A stretch of DNA of 21,140 nucleotides from a virus. Made by a program: the position numbers and the translations under genes. Shown here piece after piece: positions 1,807-12,593 of this stretch. The DNA lies in the IMG/VR virus record IMGVR_UViG_3300032224_001348, positions 1 through 21,140 of that record. One strand, 5' to 3'. Below the pieces are notes generated by a model. The model was not told the origin of the DNA. It saw nothing but the letters and a program-made list of their open reading frames with translations, and made no database searches. Each line of letters begins with the position of its first letter. Within the stretch, counting starts at the first letter, position 1.

Positions 1807-4800
1807 CTAGCTAACGATCTGCGAAGCAGGAACTTTGTTAAGGCCGGTCTTGGCGCCAACCTCAAAACCAAGGGAAGTCAGACTCAGACCTTCGCCTGCC
1901 GTCGCTGCGGGCAAATCCTCAAGGATCAACTTTACCGCTTGTGTCTTCTGTCGCGCAAGGTCTACGCGCCATTGGTAAAGCTGAAACGTGCCACCATACA
2001 CCGATTCAGACCCATATGGCGAAGAACCGCCGTAGGTCGTTGGCGTCGTGGGCGTTACGGTGGTCTGTTGAACAATGGTGTCGTTGAAGTCTACGCAAAC
2101 GCTGACCAGCAAGTTGTGTGCGCTCTTCCAGGCCCCAAGGATCTGCGCTCGACGCACACGCTGGAACCCCTGCACGTTGGCAAACGACAACCAAGACGTA
2201 GCGAGCTTCAGCTTGATCGGCGATCCGGCGTCAGTGAACACGCCAGGGGTTTCCTTGAGCACGCTGCCATTCAACCGCAGCATGACCATCGTGTCCTGCC
2301 ACACAAGCGAGTCTACGGCGTACTGGTTGGTGAACGTGCCCCACTGCTGCACAAAATAGTCAAACACCAGCGTCTTGCCGCTCTCGAGCGTGAAACGGAC
2401 CTGGTTGGTCGTAGACACCAGCGTGGCCGACGTAATCGTCTCGTTGTTGTACGCCTCAACCGGCGAGCCGACGTACTGCACCGCCAGCGAGCGGTCAATC
2501 AGGTAAATGCCCTTGGCGCTCTGGAACATGATGCCAACAGGCGTGCCGACCACACTGCGCGGCTCAATGCAGCCGCAGTCGGTCGTGATCAAAATGGCGT
2601 CCGACAGGTCGTTGTTTTGATTGTTGTTGGTCGGACCTTGGCCGACAATGAAGAAAATGTGACTTTTCTTGAACACCAAAAGCTTGTCATCGACCGTTGC
2701 AAGTGCCGTCACCGGACCACCGCGCGGATCAATTTGCCTGACAAATGTGCTGTTAAACTCTACAGGGTAGCCAGCCAGAACTTCTTTGGAGTACCAAAGC
2801 TGAAGTGGGTTTGTGCTATCCACAACCCAAATCCGGTTGCGATGCAACTGCATGAACCCAGTCGGCGGCGCAGGCTGGTTGGGCACAATCGCGTCAACCG
2901 TCGTGTCAAGCGGCTGAGTGTAAAGCAAGGGATTGGTTTCAATCGACGCATCGGCCAAAGTGTCGGTGTACGTCAGCGTTGAACTTGCGCCGTTAATGAT
3001 GTTGTAGTCCGGCACCGTCAAGCTGCTGATGCGATACAGTATGGTTCCAAGTGACTGCGTTCGGTAAAAAATAATCTGCACCGGATTGCTGATCTTGGCC
3101 GTGAATTGAAGGTACGGAACAGTCAGTTGCACCGACCCAGCCGTTACGCCGCCAACAACAACATCCGGCACCAGCAGCGGATAGCTGATGTGCGGATTGC
3201 CTTGGTTATCAATCCACTCGTACGTCACCGCATAGGTGTAGGTGCCTGCCGCGATGTGACCGCCAGTTGGCGATACTGATGTGGTGCAAAAGTCTGGATA
3301 CAGGTGGAAGTTGTGTTCCACCACGCTCACGCCGTCATACATCTGCACGAAACCGCCGGTAAAGTGCAGATCTTGTCCAAGCGTAGCGTGACCGTATGAG
3401 TGCTCGGGGCTGTCAAAGTTAAACGTCAGCGCCGACACGTTGTTGGGCGTCTGAATGCCTGCGCCAGCCGTCAGCGCTTGCTCGGTGCAAGCAAACCGGA
3501 ACTCGCTCGGACTGATTTGTGTAACGCCAGCCAAAATGGGCTTTGACTGCGTGCCATAGCTAACGCTGTTTGTGCGAGCGTAACCGCCAGATACCGAAGC
3601 CAGCGCCTTGGCTGCAATGTACAAATCTTCTCGCACGATGAAGTTGGTTGGCTGAATCGTGTCGCTTGTCCAGTATGTGACCGGAACGTAAACGTTTTCG
3701 TTGTACGCAAAAACCTTTGCAATCAACACCGCCGTCTGGAGCCACGGCGAAGTCAACGTGTAGTTGTATTGCGAGTCAACAACCGCCTTGTACGTCTTGC
3801 GAGCAACGTCAGGCGTTGACGAAATAATTGACCAATACAGTTGAAATCCAACGCTTCCATTTTGAGCTGTGATGCCGGTAATAGCCCGAACCGGCTCAAC
3901 GCCAGAATCAACCGTATCGCTGTTGACCAACAAAAGCTGTGACGTAAACGCAAAGTAGTTAACGCTAGACGTATACGGCGACGATCCGTTGTCGGTAGAA
4001 AATGCAACAACAAGGCCCGTTGCACCAACCGTAACGGTCTGAGCCGGGAACACGGTAATCGCTCGCGATCGGTCAGGTTGCGAGTATTGCGTAGTTGATT
4101 CAGTGGTCGGATTGAATCCGTAGTACATGCGAACCGTAGTTCCACCGCCGGTTAGCCGGCTGTTGAATGCCACGGCAATCTGGTTGCCAACAACACACAC
4201 ATCGTAGTTAGGCGACGTAGCGTTGATTGCGTTTTCGTCAGACGCCAAGCCGGTTAGCGTAGACACGCTGGGCATGCCGTTTGGCGAGCCAACCGGCAAC
4301 TGTGCAACCTTGAGCGTCGTCGCCGACGTGTCGTACCAGTAAAACAAAAACAAGCCACTGATAGTAATCACTCGCGGCTTAATCGCATTGGACGCAAGCA
4401 GTGTTGCGGGCTGAACCATCTGTCCGGTTGCGCTATCAATGATGCAGTACCTGATGACGTTGGTGCCCGACGAGTCTTCCCAGACGTACGCCTGCAGCCC
4501 ATCAGGATGCGTCACACCATCTGGACACGCCTGATCATAACTGTCACGAATAACCGATGCGTTGGTGACGTAAACCGATTCAAATGCGCCTTTGTCGGTC
4601 CATGCGTTAGCGGCTTGATCGTAGCTGTAAATGCTTTCGCCATTTGCGAGCAGCAGCTCATTTCCGTACGTCGCAAGACCCTTTCCGGCGTCAATCGTCG
4701 TAAACGAAGCAGCGCCGTTAGTTACCTGCGTGCCCAGCGCCACGTTGCCGTCGCGCTTGCGAATAGCCTTGAGTGTGGTGAAAACACCGTTCTCAAGCTC

Positions 4801-4893
4801 AAGCAGTTTTCCAGCAACAACCTGCTTGGCGTCAGTCTTGGTATCCACGCCCTGCGCTAGCGGCATGGTGATCACCTGGCGTTCCAAAGGCAT
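1807..4893 (-). CDS. Tail nozzle / tail tubular protein B-like protein, 1028 aa
   Basis: A large, mostly beta-stranded protein starting MPLERQVITMPLAQGVDTKT. Its N-terminus (GVDTKTDAKQVVAGKLLELENG, then RKRDG) resembles proteins that form the distal tail tube, or nozzle, of short-tailed phages. Near residues 735-810 lies a conserved-looking stretch with KKSHIFFIVGQ, CGCIEPRSVVGTPVG and SAKGIYLIDRS, a pattern typical of T7 gp12-like nozzle and P22-type stabilisation proteins with a beta-propeller core. At 1028 residues it is longer than T7 gp12 (about 790), so extra domains are likely; the middle part (FHLYPDFCTTSVSPTGGHIA...) may be one. The ribosome binding site AGGGAG overlaps the TAG stop of the gene upstream. 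Assignment to the nozzle family is confident at the level of fold and position, not of exact subfamily. Confidence 0.85.
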   Translation of the reverse strand: MPLERQVITMPLAQGVDTKTDAKQVVAGKLLELENGVFTTLKAIRKRDGNVALGTQVTNGAASFTTIDAGKGLATYGNELLLANGESIYSYDQAANAWTDKGAFESVYVTNASVIRDSYDQACPDGVTHPDGLQAYVWEDSSGTNVIRYCIIDSATGQMVQPATLLASNAIKPRVITISGLFLFYWYDTSATTLKVAQLPVGSPNGMPSVSTLTGLASDENAINATSPNYDVCVVGNQIAVAFNSRLTGGGTTVRMYYGFNPTTESTTQYSQPDRSRAITVFPAQTVTVGATGLVVAFSTDNGSSPYTSSVNYFAFTSQLLLVNSDTVDSGVEPVRAITGITAQNGSVGFQLYWSIISSTPDVARKTYKAVVDSQYNYTLTSPWLQTAVLIAKVFAYNENVYVPVTYWTSDTIQPTNFIVREDLYIAAKALASVSGGYARTNSVSYGTQSKPILAGVTQISPSEFRFACTEQALTAGAGIQTPNNVSALTFNFDSPEHSYGHATLGQDLHFTGGFVQMYDGVSVVEHNFHLYPDFCTTSVSPTGGHIAAGTYTYAVTYEWIDNQGNPHISYPLLVPDVVVGGVTAGSVQLTVPYLQFTAKISNPVQIIFYRTQSLGTILYRISSLTVPDYNIINGASSTLTYTDTLADASIETNPLLYTQPLDTTVDAIVPNQPAPPTGFMQLHRNRIWVVDSTNPLQLWYSKEVLAGYPVEFNSTFVRQIDPRGGPVTALATVDDKLLVFKKSHIFFIVGQGPTNNNQNNDLSDAILITTDCGCIEPRSVVGTPVGIMFQSAKGIYLIDRSLAVQYVGSPVEAYNNETITSATLVSTTNQVRFTLESGKTLVFDYFVQQWGTFTNQYAVDSLVWQDTMVMLRLNGSVLKETPGVFTDAGSPIKLKLATSWLSFANVQGFQRVRRAQILGAWKSAHNLLVSVCVDFNDTIVQQTTVTPTTPTTYGGSSPYGSESVYGGTFQLYQWRVDLARQKTQAVKLILEDLPAATAGEGLSLTSLGFEVGAKTGLNKVPASQIVS

Positions 4894-4902
4894 GGCTACT
4901 CC

Positions 4903-6021
4903 CTAGAGCTGATACACAAGCAGCTTAGCATACGAAATTGTAGCAATACCGCCTTGATTTACCGCATACGCCGTAACGTTAGTGATGCCGGTCGCCGTAG
5001 GGACAAACACATGGCTAACCGAAGACACTGGGATGCTAAAAGACGTGGCGCCATACGGAGCAATAATCTTGCAAAATGCTCCATCTGCCGTATTTGCGCC
5101 GGAAAGGCGAATGTAAATATCAACGCGCGTATCTGTTTCAATGCAACTTGGGTTGTTGGTCACAATCCCAACACCATCGTACTGAAGACACGCCACAAGC
5201 GGCCTTGTGGTGAGCAGATTCACAGTGGTGCTTAGGTTTGTAATCGCATGCGAAAGCGAGTCGGATGGAACGCTGTAAACGCCACACGAAGACGAAAGGT
5301 TTTTAGTAACAGCAGACAGCTTAGCGCCGGTAACTGACCCATCAGCAAGATTAGCCGTTTGAATGCCAGGCGTTGCCACACCAAGAGTTGAGGACGTAAG
5401 AGTTAGCGTTGCGTCAACGGCCACATTAGACATAACGCCGTTGTTGACGCCAAACAGTCGAGCGCCGCTAACTGGAGCAGCAGGCAGCGTCAACGTCCAA
5501 TTGGTCGTGCCGCTCGCGGGCGTAATAGTCACGCCATTGGACGACGTTGACGTAAGCCGAGTGGTAATTGGACCAACATCAATCGCAGCAGACTGGTTAA
5601 CGTTTTTAGTAAAAACAAATGTTGCAGTGCCAAGGTTATAGGCAACACCGGCAGAAGTTCCAACCAAACCAGAAATGTTGCCAGGCGAACCAACTATTGC
5701 GCCAGCATTAGTGATAGGAATAGCGTTTCCGCTTCCATCACGGAAGTACATATTTCCGCTGTTGACGTACACGCCATTGATAAACGTCGGCGTGGAGCCA
5801 ATGTCAGCGTAAACGGTTCCTTTAAGGTTGATCGCCGCATGGCCGGCAAACGAAAGGTCGGCGTTAATTCCAATGCCATTAGAAGGGACAAGAGCGCCGT
5901 TGCCAGAAGTGTGATTGTGCGAATCAATCGTGGTGAGCGCCTGATTGATATCGGTAGCCCACAGCGGCCCCGGCGTGGTGGACACCACTGGCAGCGTCAG
6001 GTTCATGTTGGGCGTCGTCAT
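4903..6021 (-). CDS. Tail fibre / appendage-like protein, 372 aa
   Basis: The protein starts MTTPNMNLTLPVVSTTPGPLW and then has SHNHTSGNG followed by INADLSFAGHAAINLKG. This HNHTSG plus INADLSF...N segment is a widespread N-terminal attachment region of phage fibres and appendages. Residues about 100-370 are Ser/Thr/Gly-rich beta sequence, with GVTITPASGTTNWTLTLP as a typical fibre module and GSVTGAKL, a common trimeric-fibre linker. The C-terminal 130 residues are the probable tip domain. AGGAG, formed from the preceding TAG stop, lies six bases before the ATG. It lies between a larger fibre-like gene and the nozzle gene. It may be a second receptor-binding protein or a collar/appendage subunit; the sequence does not decide. 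Confidence 0.8.
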   Translation of the reverse strand: MTTPNMNLTLPVVSTTPGPLWATDINQALTTIDSHNHTSGNGALVPSNGIGINADLSFAGHAAINLKGTVYADIGSTPTFINGVYVNSGNMYFRDGSGNAIPITNAGAIVGSPGNISGLVGTSAGVAYNLGTATFVFTKNVNQSAAIDVGPITTRLTSTSSNGVTITPASGTTNWTLTLPAAPVSGARLFGVNNGVMSNVAVDATLTLTSSTLGVATPGIQTANLADGSVTGAKLSAVTKNLSSSCGVYSVPSDSLSHAITNLSTTVNLLTTRPLVACLQYDGVGIVTNNPSCIETDTRVDIYIRLSGANTADGAFCKIIAPYGATSFSIPVSSVSHVFVPTATGITNVTAYAVNQGGIATISYAKLLVYQL

Positions 6022-6030
6022 TGTTATCTC

Positions 6031-8880
6031 CTAGAACAGGTCAAGTTGTACCACAAGATCGGCGGCACTGTTGCTGTTTCCAAGCCCTGTTACTTGAACT
6101 GAAAAATAATCAAACTGAGCAAAGTCTACCGATGCTGAATAGTTGGTTGCCGATGTTGTCGATCCCGAGATGGTTGCAGACATCAGCGTCGGAACGCCCG
6201 ATCCAACAACGCCGGTCTTTGATGCCAGAACCGTCACCTGCACAGAGTTGCTGCCACCAGGTGCAGTGCGAAGGTTAATAAACATCCCTTGCATAACCGA
6301 TTTTTGCTGCACCCTTGAAAACACCTGAGCGGTGTCTCCTGTTGACGCAAGCGTTCCCGGCCAGCAGTACCTAACCGTGCCCGTGTTGCTAGATGCAATG
6401 CCGGCATTAAGCCCAAAAATTGAAATTGTTGGCGTAACATACGTTGTAAACGGATGCGTTGCGGCGGTCTTCGTAACCAAATCCGTTCCGGGGCCAAGCT
6501 GAATTCCGTTGGTGCCGTTTGCGGCCTGCGGAGCATTTTGCAGAATGTCTGATCCAACGTAACGCTGCACGAACGTCAGCGAGCCAGCTCCCACGTTAAT
6601 GTTGGTGGTGCATTCCCAGCCCGTGTGCGTGTAAGTGCCGCCATTACAGAACGTGTAGACGCCTAGCGCAGCAGAACCCGCAGCCATGTCGCCGGCTCGA
6701 GTCCAAGCGCCTGAAGCGACAATGTAAATGCCATTGTTAGTGCCGGATGTCTGGCCGGCAGCAAGAACTCGCATCCCGGCCGTGAGCGCGACGCCTTGCA
6801 GCGTATAAGTACCAGAAAGCGTGATGTTTGTCGTGGCCGTCACCGCCACAGGCAACTTCAATTGAACCGCAGGATAAGGAGATCCACGAATCGAAGTTGA
6901 ACGACACTGCACCTGCGAGTTGTCGTTGTCGGTGTAGATGCCAACGTAAATGCCGGTACTCGTCGCATCGGTGGGCGCGGCAACGTAGATGTTTGTATCT
7001 CGGGTTGAGATCTGATTTGCGCTTCCCGCGCCGCTAGGCATATAGAACCCAAATTTGCTACCAGCGCCGTTGGACTTGACGTTGATCGTCACGCCTCGCG
7101 TGAAGTTGAAACTGAACGTGGCATCGTTCAACGTACCCACTCCAGACGAGTAGATGCCATAAACATTGGTCGTCGTGCCAACAGCAAGGCCAGAGTTGTC
7201 TACCGTCAACACGGAAGTGCGAAACTTTGACGTAACGCTTGTCGTGCCGGGGAGTTCAATGCCGACAAGGTTTGTCGTAACATTGCTGCTGTTGAGCGTG
7301 AGCGTTAGGTCTTCAACGCGACTGTTCTCGCCCATCGTAAGCAGCGTGACAGTGCCGCCGGGGTTTGCGGCGTTCATCACAATCTTGGTCGTCTGCGTGC
7401 TCATGCCACGCAGAGCGCAACCGGTAGGCATCGTCAGGCCGGTCGTCGCCGAGGCCAGCGTATAGGTGCCCGGCATCACCCAGCAGGTGGCGGGCGAGCC
7501 AAACGCAGCAATCGCAGCGATGCCAGCCTCAACGGTCTTGAACGGCAAGCCGTTGACCGCTCCGGTACCGTCGTTGCCGTTAACCGTATCCACAACCGCC
7601 ACGTTTCCAAGCTTTGGTGACAGCGTTGTCGGCGCTGAAGGAAACGCAATCGCAGTCGGCGTCACGCCGGTCACTCGACCCTTGGTGTCCGTAGTGAACA
7701 CCGGAACCGTGGTTGAGTTGCCGTAGGTGCCTGCGGTGCCGGTCGCAATCAGCGTCGGGTTCGGATAGGTGCCGGTCAGGTCGCCGCCAGCAGGACCGAT
7801 GGGCAGCGCGTAACCTGGCACCGCACTTGGGAACGGCGCAACCGGCGGCGTGAACGCGCTGGCGTACTGAGCGATCTTCGACAACCGAAGGTCGTTCATG
7901 TAGCCGTTGTACTTGAGGTAGGTGTTCGCCGCGCGACCGTCAATCGTAGCGCCAATCGTCATGGACGAGGCGGTCAGGTTAAACGTGAACGACGTGCTGC
8001 TGTCGTACGCGCCGTTCAAGTAGATCGTCAGCGTGCCCGAGCTGCGAACCACCGTGAAGAACGTCCAAGTGTTCAGCGGGATCGTGCCAACTGACGTGAG
8101 CACCGGACCACCGCGCCACACGATCAGGTTGCCGGTTGTCGTGGTCAGCACGATGATCGCAAACGGATCGCCGCCAGCGTTCTGCGTGTCAACGATGGTG
8201 CCGCCAAGAATTGAGTAACCGCCGCCACCGTACGTGTTGAGGTAAATCCAACCCTCAATCGTGAAGTCGCCAGTGCCAAACGCATAAGCCGGATTTGACG
8301 GCGCCGTAATGTAGTCGCCGTTACCGTCAAACGACGCCGAGCCGTTGCCGTACTCGCTGGGCGACGCAACAACCTGCGTGTTGCCAAACGGCGTCAGCGT
8401 GGCTTGGATGTAGCTCGTATCGGGAAACGACGTGCTGCCAGCCGTGCCGCTGCCAGCCATAAGCAGCACAATGTTCGGGTCGCCAGCGCCGCCGCCAGCG
8501 TTGTTAAACGTGTTCCAGTCGGCCGAGCTCAACCAGCCATCGCTGGTCGGCCCTGCCTGCGTCATGGATAGGTTGGGCGTCGTGCCGCCAGTAGACGACA
8601 TGGGCGTTGTAGCCGTGACAGCCGTAACACCGCCGCCGCCACCACCGGCACCAGGTGCCCACTGGCCGTTGTTGTACACCAACGACTGCCCAGCGGTTGG
8701 CGTGGTGTTGGCTACTGGCGTGCCTTGAAGCGCCACCACGGACGGCGACTCAAGCGGCCCAGACAAGTCGCCTTTGACGTTGCGAAGAATAGGGTTCAAC
8801 GCAGCCGCAAGCTGGTCCTGCACGCGATTGAGCGAGTCGTCTTGGCTCTGAATGCGTGAGAACTGCTTGATGGTCGGCAT
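6031..8880 (-). CDS. Multidomain tail fibre / receptor-binding protein with LamG-like and beta-helix modules, 949 aa
   Basis: The N-terminal 75 residues carry the fibre motif GDLSGPLESPSVVALQGTPV, then a Gly run near residue 80. Residues about 135-350 look like a LamG/concanavalin-A-like domain (GNGSASFDGNGDYITAP, then FTIEGWIYL, then WTFFTVVRSSGTLTIYLNG). Residues about 355-415 repeat the fibre linker (GGDLTGTYPNPTLIATG, TTDTKGRVTGVTP). Residues about 420-650 look like a pectate-lyase-type beta-helix (DTVNGNDGTGAVNGLPFKTV, GCALRGMSTQTTKIVM). Residues about 670-770 match a recurrent fibre module (TNITLSGTYTLQGVALTAG ... NNGIYIVASGAWTRAGDM). The rest is the likely C-terminal tip. The start codon overlaps the adaptor stop by one base (TAATG), so translation is coupled. 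Sugar binding by the LamG-like part, and polysaccharide binding or cleavage by the helix, are family-level expectations; no catalytic residues were identified. Confidence 0.87.
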   Translation of the reverse strand: MPTIKQFSRIQSQDDSLNRVQDQLAAALNPILRNVKGDLSGPLESPSVVALQGTPVANTTPTAGQSLVYNNGQWAPGAGGGGGGVTAVTATTPMSSTGGTTPNLSMTQAGPTSDGWLSSADWNTFNNAGGGAGDPNIVLLMAGSGTAGSTSFPDTSYIQATLTPFGNTQVVASPSEYGNGSASFDGNGDYITAPSNPAYAFGTGDFTIEGWIYLNTYGGGGYSILGGTIVDTQNAGGDPFAIIVLTTTTGNLIVWRGGPVLTSVGTIPLNTWTFFTVVRSSGTLTIYLNGAYDSSTSFTFNLTASSMTIGATIDGRAANTYLKYNGYMNDLRLSKIAQYASAFTPPVAPFPSAVPGYALPIGPAGGDLTGTYPNPTLIATGTAGTYGNSTTVPVFTTDTKGRVTGVTPTAIAFPSAPTTLSPKLGNVAVVDTVNGNDGTGAVNGLPFKTVEAGIAAIAAFGSPATCWVMPGTYTLASATTGLTMPTGCALRGMSTQTTKIVMNAANPGGTVTLLTMGENSRVEDLTLTLNSSNVTTNLVGIELPGTTSVTSKFRTSVLTVDNSGLAVGTTTNVYGIYSSGVGTLNDATFSFNFTRGVTINVKSNGAGSKFGFYMPSGAGSANQISTRDTNIYVAAPTDATSTGIYVGIYTDNDNSQVQCRSTSIRGSPYPAVQLKLPVAVTATTNITLSGTYTLQGVALTAGMRVLAAGQTSGTNNGIYIVASGAWTRAGDMAAGSAALGVYTFCNGGTYTHTGWECTTNINVGAGSLTFVQRYVGSDILQNAPQAANGTNGIQLGPGTDLVTKTAATHPFTTYVTPTISIFGLNAGIASSNTGTVRYCWPGTLASTGDTAQVFSRVQQKSVMQGMFINLRTAPGGSNSVQVTVLASKTGVVGSGVPTLMSATISGSTTSATNYSASVDFAQFDYFSVQVTGLGNSNSAADLVVQLDLF

Positions 8881-10274
8881 TACGGAATACCGCCGCCACC
8901 ACCGAAGCCGTTACCAAAGGGCCACGTTCCGTTAGTCCACTGCACGTCCGCAATCGTCGCGGGCGAGCCGGCATCGCGGTTCTCGGCCGCAGCCTCAATG
9001 CGCTTGATCAGTGCCGCCTTCTGAAACTGAAGAACGGATGTATCTGACTCTTCCTTCTGAAGCATCTTGATTGCGGCATCCGTGACCACATACTCAAGCC
9101 AACCAGACACGCCATCGGCCACCGTGTTCGGCTGCTCAACCACCGGAGGCGTGATCGTGCCAGTGCCATAAAGCGTCGTCGTTACGTTGACGTTGCTGCA
9201 CGCAACGTAGAGCGGCGTTGCCGAGTAAAACGAAAGCTGCGTGCCGGAAGTCGCCTCTTGATACGGCGCCACGTACTCCGGATGCGTTGCTGCATAAGCA
9301 TCAATCGCAAGCTGAATGTTGCCAATGGTTTCGGAAATGCCAACGCCGACCTGGAACTGAACTTCCGAGGGCTCGGTGATGTTGCTAACAGCAGTAAACA
9401 GCACGCTTCCGGCCTGAACCGTGTCACCAATAGACAGGTTCGCAGCAAAATCCATTTTGCCGACAATTGGAAATGCAGAAGCGCTTTCAACCGTGAAGGC
9501 GTTGACGTTGTTGGTCGAAACGTTGAACGTCGTGGGCTGCCGAATGAACAAGACACCAAGCGAGTAGGTGGCCGTGTACGTCGTCGTCTGCGCCGCGATA
9601 GCCGCAAGCAGGTTGGCAGCGGTCGCGTCAGCGTCACCGTTAACCGCGATGAACTCGTACGCTGCCGGATTAGCGTCAACGGCCGTATAGGTGTCGCCAG
9701 CGATTACAAGCGTGTCGCCAGCAAGGACAGTGGTGTTAACGCCAACAACATCAAGAAAATCGTTTGGCAAATTGTTGTACGGAATTGGCTCTGGCTGCAC
9801 AACGTCAACCAGTTCCGCAAGGCGCGGGATGTACCAGATCCGAATGGTCTGCCCCGTCTGCGGCGACGGCGTGAACCAAAGCGTGTTGGCGCTGATGCGA
9901 TACCGCAGGTTCGTCACGCCAATCCAGGTCTGGACGTTGGCGGTCGAGTATCGATTGCGCTCGGCCAGCGTGAACGGACGCAGCGAAACGTAGCCGTCAG
10001 GGCCACCGCTGATCTGCAAATCCACGCCAAGCAACTTGAAAAAATCAGCCGGCAAGTCATACCGAGAAATGTTCCCCTGCAACTGGAACGAGTACTCGGT
10101 CATGTAGTAGTCGTTGCCGTACTTCTGCACCAACAGGTCGTACAACTCAAAGTACGAGGCGTTGATGTAGCTGTTCAACTCGGAGTCAGAAATGAACGTT
10201 GAGTTGACCATATCCGCACGCTGACGCGATGCGGTACGGAGCTGCGCGAGGGTCATCTTCGGGTAAATAGCCAA
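8880..10274 (-). CDS. Head-tail adaptor (tail tubular protein A-like) with internal insertion, 464 aa
   Basis: I place the start at TTG 10274, which begins MAIYPKMTLAQLRTASRQRA and follows AGGAGGG by three bases. A GTG at 10310 would lie inside the hairpin before the ribosome binding site, and ATG 10256 is too far from it. The N-terminal part (helical TLAQLR...DSELNSYINASYFELYDLL, then YDLPADFFKLLGVDL and IRIWYIPRL) and the C-terminal part (GWLEYVVTDAAIKMLQKEES, KRIEAAAENRDAG) match the known pattern of adaptors that sit below the portal and open the tail tube. Between them, residues about 181-373 form an extra region with two related beta modules. The end is Gly-rich. The stop overlaps the next start (TAATG). 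The family call is strong; the insertion is unusual. Confidence 0.87.
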   Translation of the reverse strand: MAIYPKMTLAQLRTASRQRADMVNSTFISDSELNSYINASYFELYDLLVQKYGNDYYMTEYSFQLQGNISRYDLPADFFKLLGVDLQISGGPDGYVSLRPFTLAERNRYSTANVQTWIGVTNLRYRISANTLWFTPSPQTGQTIRIWYIPRLAELVDVVQPEPIPYNNLPNDFLDVVGVNTTVLAGDTLVIAGDTYTAVDANPAAYEFIAVNGDADATAANLLAAIAAQTTTYTATYSLGVLFIRQPTTFNVSTNNVNAFTVESASAFPIVGKMDFAANLSIGDTVQAGSVLFTAVSNITEPSEVQFQVGVGISETIGNIQLAIDAYAATHPEYVAPYQEATSGTQLSFYSATPLYVACSNVNVTTTLYGTGTITPPVVEQPNTVADGVSGWLEYVVTDAAIKMLQKEESDTSVLQFQKAALIKRIEAAAENRDAGSPATIADVQWTNGTWPFGNGFGGGGGIP

Positions 10275-10285
10275 GCGCCCTCCTG

Positions 10286-10330
10286 ATAGGCATAGGACGC
10301 CCCGGCACACACCGAGGCGCCCTATCCTAT
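10286..10330 (-). promoter_or_regulatory. Strong RNA hairpin just before the adaptor ribosome binding site
   Basis: On the minus strand 19 base pairs form between 10312-10330 and 10286-10305, with one bulged base at 10291, two G-U pairs and a 6-nt loop (10306-10311). The hairpin ends one base before the AGGAGGG ribosome binding site at 10278-10284 and starts seven bases after the stop of the upstream gene. There is no U-run, so it is more likely an RNA processing, stability or translation-control element than a classic terminator; that function is inference. Confidence 0.6.
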
Positions 10331-11137: not shown

Positions 11138-12460
11138 TTACGCGCCGAGCTGCACGACGGCGTTAAAGCCGGGGGCGTTGCAGCCGAGGTTCGCGTACGA
11201 AACGACGCGAAGCTCCGCGGCGTCGCTGTTGTACACGCGCAGCATCTCAAGGCCGTCAGCGTACTTGGCGATGTGCGGCGCCGGCCCAAGCGAGTACAGC
11301 TTCCAGGTGTCCATCTGGAGCAGGTACGCCGTCTTCGCGGGGCACGAACGGTCGGGGAACACCTTGATCTGACCGGCGGCGCCGTTGATCAGGATGCCGG
11401 GGAACATGATCTTCGCCGGCCCGTCGAAGCTGATGTACTGCGCCTTGGCGCCGAGCGACTTCTCAAGCGCGGCGTACGAGGCGAAGTTCATGATGCACAC
11501 GTCCGGGATGCCACCTTCGCGAGCAACCAGCAGCGAGGCGTCGATCACGGCCTCTTCGATTGACTCCGAGGAGCCGTCAAAGCGCACGCCAGCGAGGCGG
11601 GTAGGATCGGTCGAGCGGTCCACGCTGAAAAACGAGTCGCCAGTCGTCGGCGCCACGGCCGGAATCCACGCAGCCAGACCCTTCAGAGCAAAACCAGCCG
11701 AGGCGGTGCGATCACCAACCACGTTCAGCGTCGAGCCGATGGTTGCCGTCCAAGAGCCGAGGCCAGTACCAGCCGTGCCGCCCATGAGGTTGGAAATCGA
11801 AACGACGCCAGTGGAGCGGTTCACGGCCACAACGTACACGGTCGAGGCGCTGCTGCTGCCGGTAACGCCAGTGCAAAGCACGCCAGCGGTGTACGCCTCA
11901 AGCGTCATGTTAACTTCAAAGTTCACAACGTCCGAGGGGTTCGACAGCTTGATCTGGCCAGTGGTGCTGCCGGTGCCAACCACGCCAAGCGTGCCGCTGC
12001 CGTCGCGGAAGATCTGCGTGGCAAGCGAGTTAGTCAGAGCGCGGATCGCGCCGTCAATCACAACGGTCGCGCCGTTGATGAACGCCATCTTGTCCGTCTT
12101 GCTGGCGAGCATCGTCTGGTTGTCAATCTGCGCGATTGAGTAGTTCTGCACGCGCGTCAGGGCAAACGACTCCACCGTGGCGGCAGTCTGCTGCGACTGC
12201 GCGTTGCTGAACGTCGCGCTGCGGCCCTGCGAGGTGTTGATGATCAGGGGAATCGGCATGTACTTGCCGCCGAACTCCTCCATCTTGGGAACCATCGCGA
12301 GGAAGGGGTTGTTCTTGTAAACGAGGTTCGCGATCTTCTGATCGTCGTAAAGCTCCTTGAGCGCGGCGTTCGCAGCGCCAAGGTCGAACGAGAACGAGGG
12401 GCCACCGGTCTGGTTCAGAGCCGGGGTCGGGGCGGGAAACGGTCCATTGGGCCAAGACAT
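11138..12460 (-). CDS. Major capsid protein, HK97-type fold, 440 aa
   Basis: The start is the ATG at 12460 (MSWPNGPFPAPTPALNQTGG), preceded by AGGA at a suitable distance; a TTG 14 codons upstream has no such support. Residues about 25-110 contain AALKELYDDQKIANLVYKNN, PFLAMVPKMEEFGGKYMPIP and SQGRSATFSNAQSQ. Then come FALTRVQNYSIAQIDNQTML and KTDKMAFINGATVVIDGAIR, all typical of podophage HK97-fold coat proteins (N-arm, E-loop and spine-helix region). Residues about 155-260 are a Thr/Ser/Gly-rich beta segment, possibly an inserted surface domain. The C-terminal part (EEAVIDASLLVAREGGIPDV, then CIMNFASYAALEKSLG) is the axial domain. The gene lies between scaffold and decoration genes and should be the most highly expressed in the operon. 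Confidence 0.92.
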   Translation of the reverse strand: MSWPNGPFPAPTPALNQTGGPSFSFDLGAANAALKELYDDQKIANLVYKNNPFLAMVPKMEEFGGKYMPIPLIINTSQGRSATFSNAQSQQTAATVESFALTRVQNYSIAQIDNQTMLASKTDKMAFINGATVVIDGAIRALTNSLATQIFRDGSGTLGVVGTGSTTGQIKLSNPSDVVNFEVNMTLEAYTAGVLCTGVTGSSSASTVYVVAVNRSTGVVSISNLMGGTAGTGLGSWTATIGSTLNVVGDRTASAGFALKGLAAWIPAVAPTTGDSFFSVDRSTDPTRLAGVRFDGSSESIEEAVIDASLLVAREGGIPDVCIMNFASYAALEKSLGAKAQYISFDGPAKIMFPGILINGAAGQIKVFPDRSCPAKTAYLLQMDTWKLYSLGPAPHIAKYADGLEMLRVYNSDAAELRVVSYANLGCNAPGFNAVVQLGA

Positions 12461-12593
12461 GTCAGATCCTATTGCAGACAACGCTTCATGCGTATCTGCC
12501 AAGCCGTAGGGTACGCGCCATGCGTCCCAATCGGCGGGTTAGCGAACAGTTAAGTTAAAAACTTTTGCACTAGCGTCACTGCCGAACGAGTGG
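12461..12593 (-). promoter_or_regulatory. 133-nt leader between scaffold and capsid genes
   Basis: This is the longest gap inside the structural operon. It contains an AT-rich stretch (minus-strand AAAAGTTTTTAACTTAACTG, near 12547-12566) and an imperfect GTTAGC/GCTAAC inverted repeat (near 12539 and 12592). The promoter match is weak (GTGACG, 16 nt, TAACTT). A separate capsid promoter or an mRNA leader is possible, but neither is established by the sequence. Confidence 0.3.

Follow-up and report, generated by a model that had tools for sequence, protein, structure and literature searches.

Two inserted domains in a podophage neck adaptor, a putative exchangeable collar decoration

The window analysed here, a 21,140-nucleotide stretch of viral DNA (IMG/VR record IMGVR_UViG_3300032224_001348, positions 1 to 21,140), codes for a predicted neck adaptor that carries two extra modules within its sequence. 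We lean towards the reading that these modules are exposed, exchangeable accessory domains at a permissive loop of the adaptor, and that they form a collar-like decoration rather than a socket for fibre docking. Accessory domains are common on phage structural proteins, but the neck adaptor tends to be regarded as part of the conserved core. In a limited search of the open-access literature, we found no description of inserts at this site in SU10-type adaptors. Because similar or even identical cores occur with none, one or two modules at one site, the role of such decorations is open to test, and the site stands out as permissive in an adaptor family that is found in many environmental phages.

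Results

The adaptor (head-to-tail connector) gene lies at 8880..10274 on the minus strand and codes for 464 residues from a TTG at 10274. The longest open reading frame is 8880..10310 on the same strand, with a GTG start at 10310 and 476 residues. AGGAGG is found directly upstream of the TTG at 10274, from which the product begins MAIYPKMTLAQLR (MAIYPKM...), a start common to its relatives; the original prediction, which assigned the insert to residues 181-373, was numbered from this TTG. The PF24175 SU10_adaptor profile matched the protein with E 3e-11 and 44.6 bits, above the curated cut-off of 27. A model of the whole protein (76-row alignment, mean pLDDT 71.4) showed a helix bundle and a beta fibre-dock domain, and matched the solved adaptors of Pa223, cyanophage A4, VP1, SU10 and N4 with Z of 12.1-13.3 over about 190-200 residues. 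According to the model and the alignment of relatives, the N-terminal core (9804..10274, minus strand) consists of two helices and the fibre-dock beta domain, and the C-terminal core (8883..9122, minus strand) of helices 3 and 4 and a C-terminal tail. Direct comparison of the core with SU10 gp11 by hhalign gave a probability of 0.3%, that is, no detectable sequence similarity, so that Pfam and fold are the grounds for relating the two. No named-phage relative of the whole adaptor was found by tblastn among 50,697 phage records at E 1e-5. Against the sequences of solved structures, adaptor profile A1 had no match at E 1, and profile A5 had only weak ferritin and nuclease matches (best E 0.023). 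Taken together, the Pfam profile and the model indicate that the product is an ordinary SU10/T7-type podophage adaptor subunit.

The insert itself proved real, but larger than the roughly 190 residues at 9156-9734 that had been predicted. Alignment with insert-free relatives gave 227 residues, 158-384 from the TTG start, at window 9123-9803. It follows the final strand of the fibre-dock beta domain and precedes helix 3, flanked by IRIWYIPRLAELVD and VADGVSGWLEYVV, and the adaptor frame, the insert and both module patterns originally quoted are all present in the window sequence. Module A, with a proline-rich lead-in, occupies 9483..9803 (minus strand) and is related to the single modules of relatives (hhalign probability 70%). 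Module B, which ends in a proline-rich linker, occupies 9123..9482 (minus strand) and is 57% identical to module B of L053, a relative from another metagenome. A frameshift or assembly artefact is unlikely: the frame is open, and L053 has the same two-module layout.

The two modules had been described as related. Profile-profile comparison of A with B (hhalign probability 59%, E 9e-5; single modules against B, 16%) and the similar order of strands and helix in their models speak for this, but in sequence the likeness is weak. Scored against a profile built from 13 single modules of relatives, A reached 8.4 bits, which 7 of 2000 shuffles matched; B reached 6.9 bits, matched by 15 of 2000, with 6.8 bits for the reversed B; the pairwise A-B score was equalled by 20 of 2000 shuffles. 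We therefore regard the modules as likely akin, though weakly so in sequence. Searches for them elsewhere gave little. By tblastn against the 50,697 phage records, neither the insert alone (E 10) nor one relative's module (E 0.01) had a match, and a scan of viral contigs for module B returned the L053 contig only. PHROGs held no match for module A, module B or the extra module of L002 (see below), and hmmsearch with the single-module profile over six-frame open reading frames of the collected loci found no convincing copy outside adaptors.

Relatives were collected in two scans of viral contigs (loci L002-L128; 80 of 274 relatives were taken from the second). After removal of duplicates and contained fragments, 86 distinct adaptors with both core parts were left; the counts leave out L132-L153, and L131 is the L108 contig, L154 the L002 contig, and several others are repeats. 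Seventy of the 86 have just 2-11 residues at the insert site, and in 13 others a single module fills it with 97-107 residues. The same two-module arrangement as in the window protein takes up 230 residues in L053; L002 has 212 residues and two modules, the second of a different kind, and the last of the 86, L108, has an unrelated insert. All inserts sit at one point, just where the fibre-dock domain gives way to helix 3. Two-module inserts are thus the exception, and most insert-bearing relatives have one module. As had been predicted, the modules are extra to the adaptor core: that they belong to the normal core is excluded by their absence from 70 of 86 distinct relatives. That all close relatives share the insert holds for the immediate clade only, and for one module only.

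Several further observations were made on these contigs. The extra module of L002 (L002:4475-4813) is of a type unlike the others, and the viral scan matched its own contig only. L108, on a distant branch, carries an unrelated insert of 111 residues at exactly the same adaptor site (L108:4520-4852), a second, independent use of the site. One module is also carried by L155, a genome contig of 45.6 kb binned as Actinomycetales, which may be a misbinned phage or a clue to the host.

We then placed the adaptors in a tree built from the core only, with the 75 of 87 rows that had N-core identity of at least 44%. The 16 module-bearing adaptors formed one clade (support 100/96), whose sister group, L076-L078, lacks inserts. 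A second module is present at no fewer than two points of the tree: in the window protein with L053, and in L002, whose core is identical to that of the one-module L014. The insert is in frame in all 16 members, and no loss of it was seen within the clade in this sample. The tree points to a single gain of the insert in the module-bearing clade, followed by divergence, expansion and partial exchange.

The modules change much faster than the core. In 13 of the 17 insert-bearing rows (L012, L108, L014 and L005 were left out), mean pairwise identity was 88.4% for the core, 39.9% for the insert, 77.0% for the N-terminal 55 residues of the fibre encoded next, and 36.3% for the rest of that fibre. 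In 13 chosen pairs, insert dN exceeded core dN in all 13 and insert dN/dS was below 1 in all 13, with several dS values saturated and high insert dS perhaps due in part to misalignment. L002 and L014 share 100% of the amino acids of the N-core and of the C-core, and 75% of those of the insert. Their dS was 0.44 in the insert as against 0.03 and 0.11 in the flanks, and their DNA is near-identical before the insert, breaks sharply in its first part, and is 88-100% identical beyond. This is the trace expected of module exchange or of recombination in place.

Modelled alone from 17 aligned modules, an alignment that presupposed homology of A, B and the single modules, module B reached a pLDDT of 84.4 and a pTM of 0.79. 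The model has strands, an 18-residue helix and more strands, in the beta-beta-beta, helix, beta-beta arrangement of solved domains. Its best match was the sheath of cyanophage A-1(L) (Z 9.3, 88 residues, rmsd 2.7), followed among tail sheaths by Sf14 (8.5), Bas63 (8.2) and Mu (7.8), with sheath matches down to 6.1. Nozzle proteins matched as well (P-SCSP1u 8.1, Kp9 7.2, T7 6.8), as did T4 gp11 (6.0), Helicobacter pylori FliD (7.3) and a flagellin (6.9); most of these Z-scores fall between 6 and 9, a range where a shared arrangement without kinship is common. By Foldseek, no PDB entry fell below E 0.001 for module B (best 0.028), and eight viral predicted structures did. Within the whole-protein model, module A was predicted with fair confidence (block-mean pLDDT 73-89 over model residues 171-240) and the region of module B mostly with low confidence; module A there matched the Kp9 nozzle (7y1c_Y) over the same stretch as module B, with Z 6.8. 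The models agree with the original view of the modules as separate folded domains.

Sequence links to known members of the fold were not significant (Milano sheath, E 0.25; Flagellin_IN, E 0.083 in one of 13 single modules). In PHROGs, one of the 13 single modules matched phrog_165, a tail sheath, at E 0.0063, and three matched phrog_28344 (best 3.9e-5). Collectively, the structural comparisons suggest that the modules have a recurrent accessory fold of phage tails and flagella. An Ig-like domain, an all-beta sandwich, is not supported, as the 18-residue helix lies in the middle of module B. Pfam searches at E up to 1 gave no Big2, I-set or FN3 match for the window protein or for the 196 residues around the insert, nor any among the matches listed for the 13 single modules.

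The gene order in the window is terminase, probable portal and scaffold, capsid protein, two small genes, adaptor, long fibre, second fibre-like protein and probable nozzle. Annotated matches were found for the terminase, and a match to SU10_MCP for the capsid protein; portal, scaffold and nozzle were named by size, sequence and order only. The gene that follows the adaptor (6031..8880, minus strand) codes for a long fibre-like protein of 949 residues with a LamG/ConA-like domain at residues 185-336 (Laminin_G_3, E 1.3e-14); residues of about 672-815 match several families of phage head-decoration and tail-fibre proteins. Its first 34 or so residues (8779-8880) are a conserved docking-type peptide, common to relatives and to short proteins of insert-free phages. 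The second fibre-like protein (4903..6021, minus strand, 372 residues) has an N-terminus of the type found directly after the adaptor in L012 and L076-L078, and by analogy with the SU10 gene order it is possibly a short tail fibre. The probable nozzle protein (1807..4893, minus strand, 1028 residues) was recognised by size and gene order, in the position of SU10 gp17, and it matches phrog_511, labelled internal virion protein, at E 8.4e-10. By eye, the capsid proteins of the window (11138-12502) and of L155 (L155:668-2029) look similar at their ends and differ in a middle stretch, possibly another variable inserted region.

Where the adaptor bears an insert, the gene at its stop codon usually specifies a long fibre-like protein that opens with a sequence like MPTIKQLSRIFSxDDSLNRLQDQLASALNPIL. 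Its counterpart in insert-free phages mostly specifies a protein of some 100 residues, with an N-terminus akin to that of the long fibres over 31 residues (hhalign 96.5%, E 8e-10); one example of this family, L100:4720-5016, had no PHROG match. The next gene was readable in 15 of the 17 insert-bearing rows (L108 and the window protein included), and 13 of these code for the dock peptide, in proteins of 187-1068 residues. The other two are L012, which has a module, and L108. The next genes of L014 and L005 were unreadable, although the start of that in L014 still matches the peptide profile. Among the 70 insert-free rows, 66 were readable, 60 had the dock peptide and 58 of these were complete: 52 proteins of 89-167 residues and six of 276-304, counts that are not independent because the peptide profiles were partly built from the same genes. 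We further found that the fibres of L002 and L014, with their different inserts, are identical in 57 of 58 N-terminal residues. L155 has a long fibre gene next to its one-module adaptor. The identities of insert and fibre N-terminus correlate over the 13 loci (Mantel r 0.43, p 0.011). The N-terminus of SU10 gp12 did not match the docking peptide.

Discussion

On the reading that we favour, a permissive surface loop, after the final strand of the fibre-dock domain and ahead of helix 3, has taken up two small accessory domains, each with the predicted beta/alpha fold of sheath outer domains, T7-like nozzles, T4 gp11, flagellin and FliD. In the usual adaptor dodecamer, up to 24 such domains per virion would ring the neck just below the head. 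The most likely function of such a decoration is to alter how the neck meets its surroundings, through weak interactions either with the host envelope or with fibre shafts that run along the neck. An outward collar, as first proposed, is plausible and is the natural reading because the modules branch off the core at the margin of the fibre-dock domain. Projection outward is suggested by the topology and by the tolerance of the site for 0-230 residues. We favour an exchangeable decoration because the modules vary and the N-terminal peptide of the fibre varies little, and because L002 and L014 have 57 of 58 fibre N-terminal residues in common although their inserts differ.

The main rival takes the modules as an enlarged fibre dock or brace that holds or orients the long fibre of the next gene, as the dock loops of SU10 do, and we consider it rather unlikely. 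The insert leaves the core at the fibre-dock domain, placed as in the SU10 and T7 docks, the dock-peptide protein is long in 13 of 15 insert rows and short in 52 of 58 complete insert-free ones, and L155 again joins one module to a long fibre. The correlation between insert and fibre N-terminus also fits a fibre role better than a free decoration. However, the tree shows one origin of the insert, which reduces its link with long fibres to what is in essence a single event, and the profiles behind the counts came partly from the counted genes. L012 has a module without a dock-peptide gene next, six insert-free phages have dock-peptide proteins of 276-304 residues, and L002 and L014 share nearly the whole fibre N-terminus despite their different inserts. 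Fibre docking, as originally suggested, thus gains weakly from the long dock-peptide fibre that nearly always comes next, and loses by L002 and L014, by L012 and by a peptide that is conserved while the modules vary.

A contact of the modules with the capsid, by analogy with the R4C adaptor, is improbable. In R4C, 12 accessory Ig-like adaptor domains are reported to touch the capsid (PMC10276861), and the SU10 adaptor is reported to interact with capsid proteins. However, such a contact would be expected to bring conservation with the capsid protein, and few of the parts examined change as fast as the modules do. Of the 86 distinct relatives, 70 manage without them, and the R4C domain is N-terminal and Ig-like, not internal and beta/alpha. 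That a mobile domain entered a permissive loop without adaptive benefit and was retained by drift is very hard to credit: one gain with later divergence, expansion and partial exchange, and the unrelated L108 insert, would suit it, but the insert is in frame in 16 of 16 clade members without a loss in this sample, and dN/dS is below 1 in the 13 pairs examined.

Returning to the exchangeable decoration, we suggest, with less assurance than for the decoration itself, that the loop joining the fibre dock to helix 3 is a fixed site of exchange. The resulting collar of 12-24 domains, variable and diversifying at about the pace of the receptor-binding fibre, might then be a second, independently evolving host contact surface.

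Known systems offer parallels to this arrangement. The gene order of the window parallels that of SU10, with the long fibre after the adaptor in both. SU10 gp11 and T7 gp11 (PF24175) share with the window adaptor the helix bundle and a fibre-dock beta domain between helices 2 and 3, with a fold match to SU10 gp11 of Z 12.3 over about 190-200 residues; the window adaptor differs by the 227 residues inserted between dock and helix 3. In the structural reports, the SU10 and T7 adaptors hold fibres through the dock domain, SU10 also through radial dock loops (PMC9509320, PMC6702177), and the P-SCSP1u adaptor is similar in its hold on fibres (PMC10575957). The R4C adaptor is likewise reported to bear an accessory domain on a dodecameric adaptor, in 12 copies round the neck, but R4C is a siphophage, and the N-terminal position, the Ig-like fold, the single copy per subunit and the capsid contact are its own (PMC10276861). 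The outer domain of contractile tail sheaths (cyanophage A-1(L), Sf14, Mu, Milano) shares the predicted fold of module B (Z 9.3-6.1); in those phages it decorates a helical sheath instead of the adaptor of a short tail. The same predicted fold is found in the T7-like nozzle domain (about residues 146-250) and in T4 gp11 (Z 8.1-6.0), which also belong to short-tail or baseplate machinery, but on a different carrier protein. Flagellin D2/D3 and FliD (IN-type) domains have a similar beta/alpha fold (FliD Z 7.3, flagellins up to 6.9), although they are bacterial and have no significant sequence match to the modules. In flagella these domains are exposed, variable parts on a conserved core.
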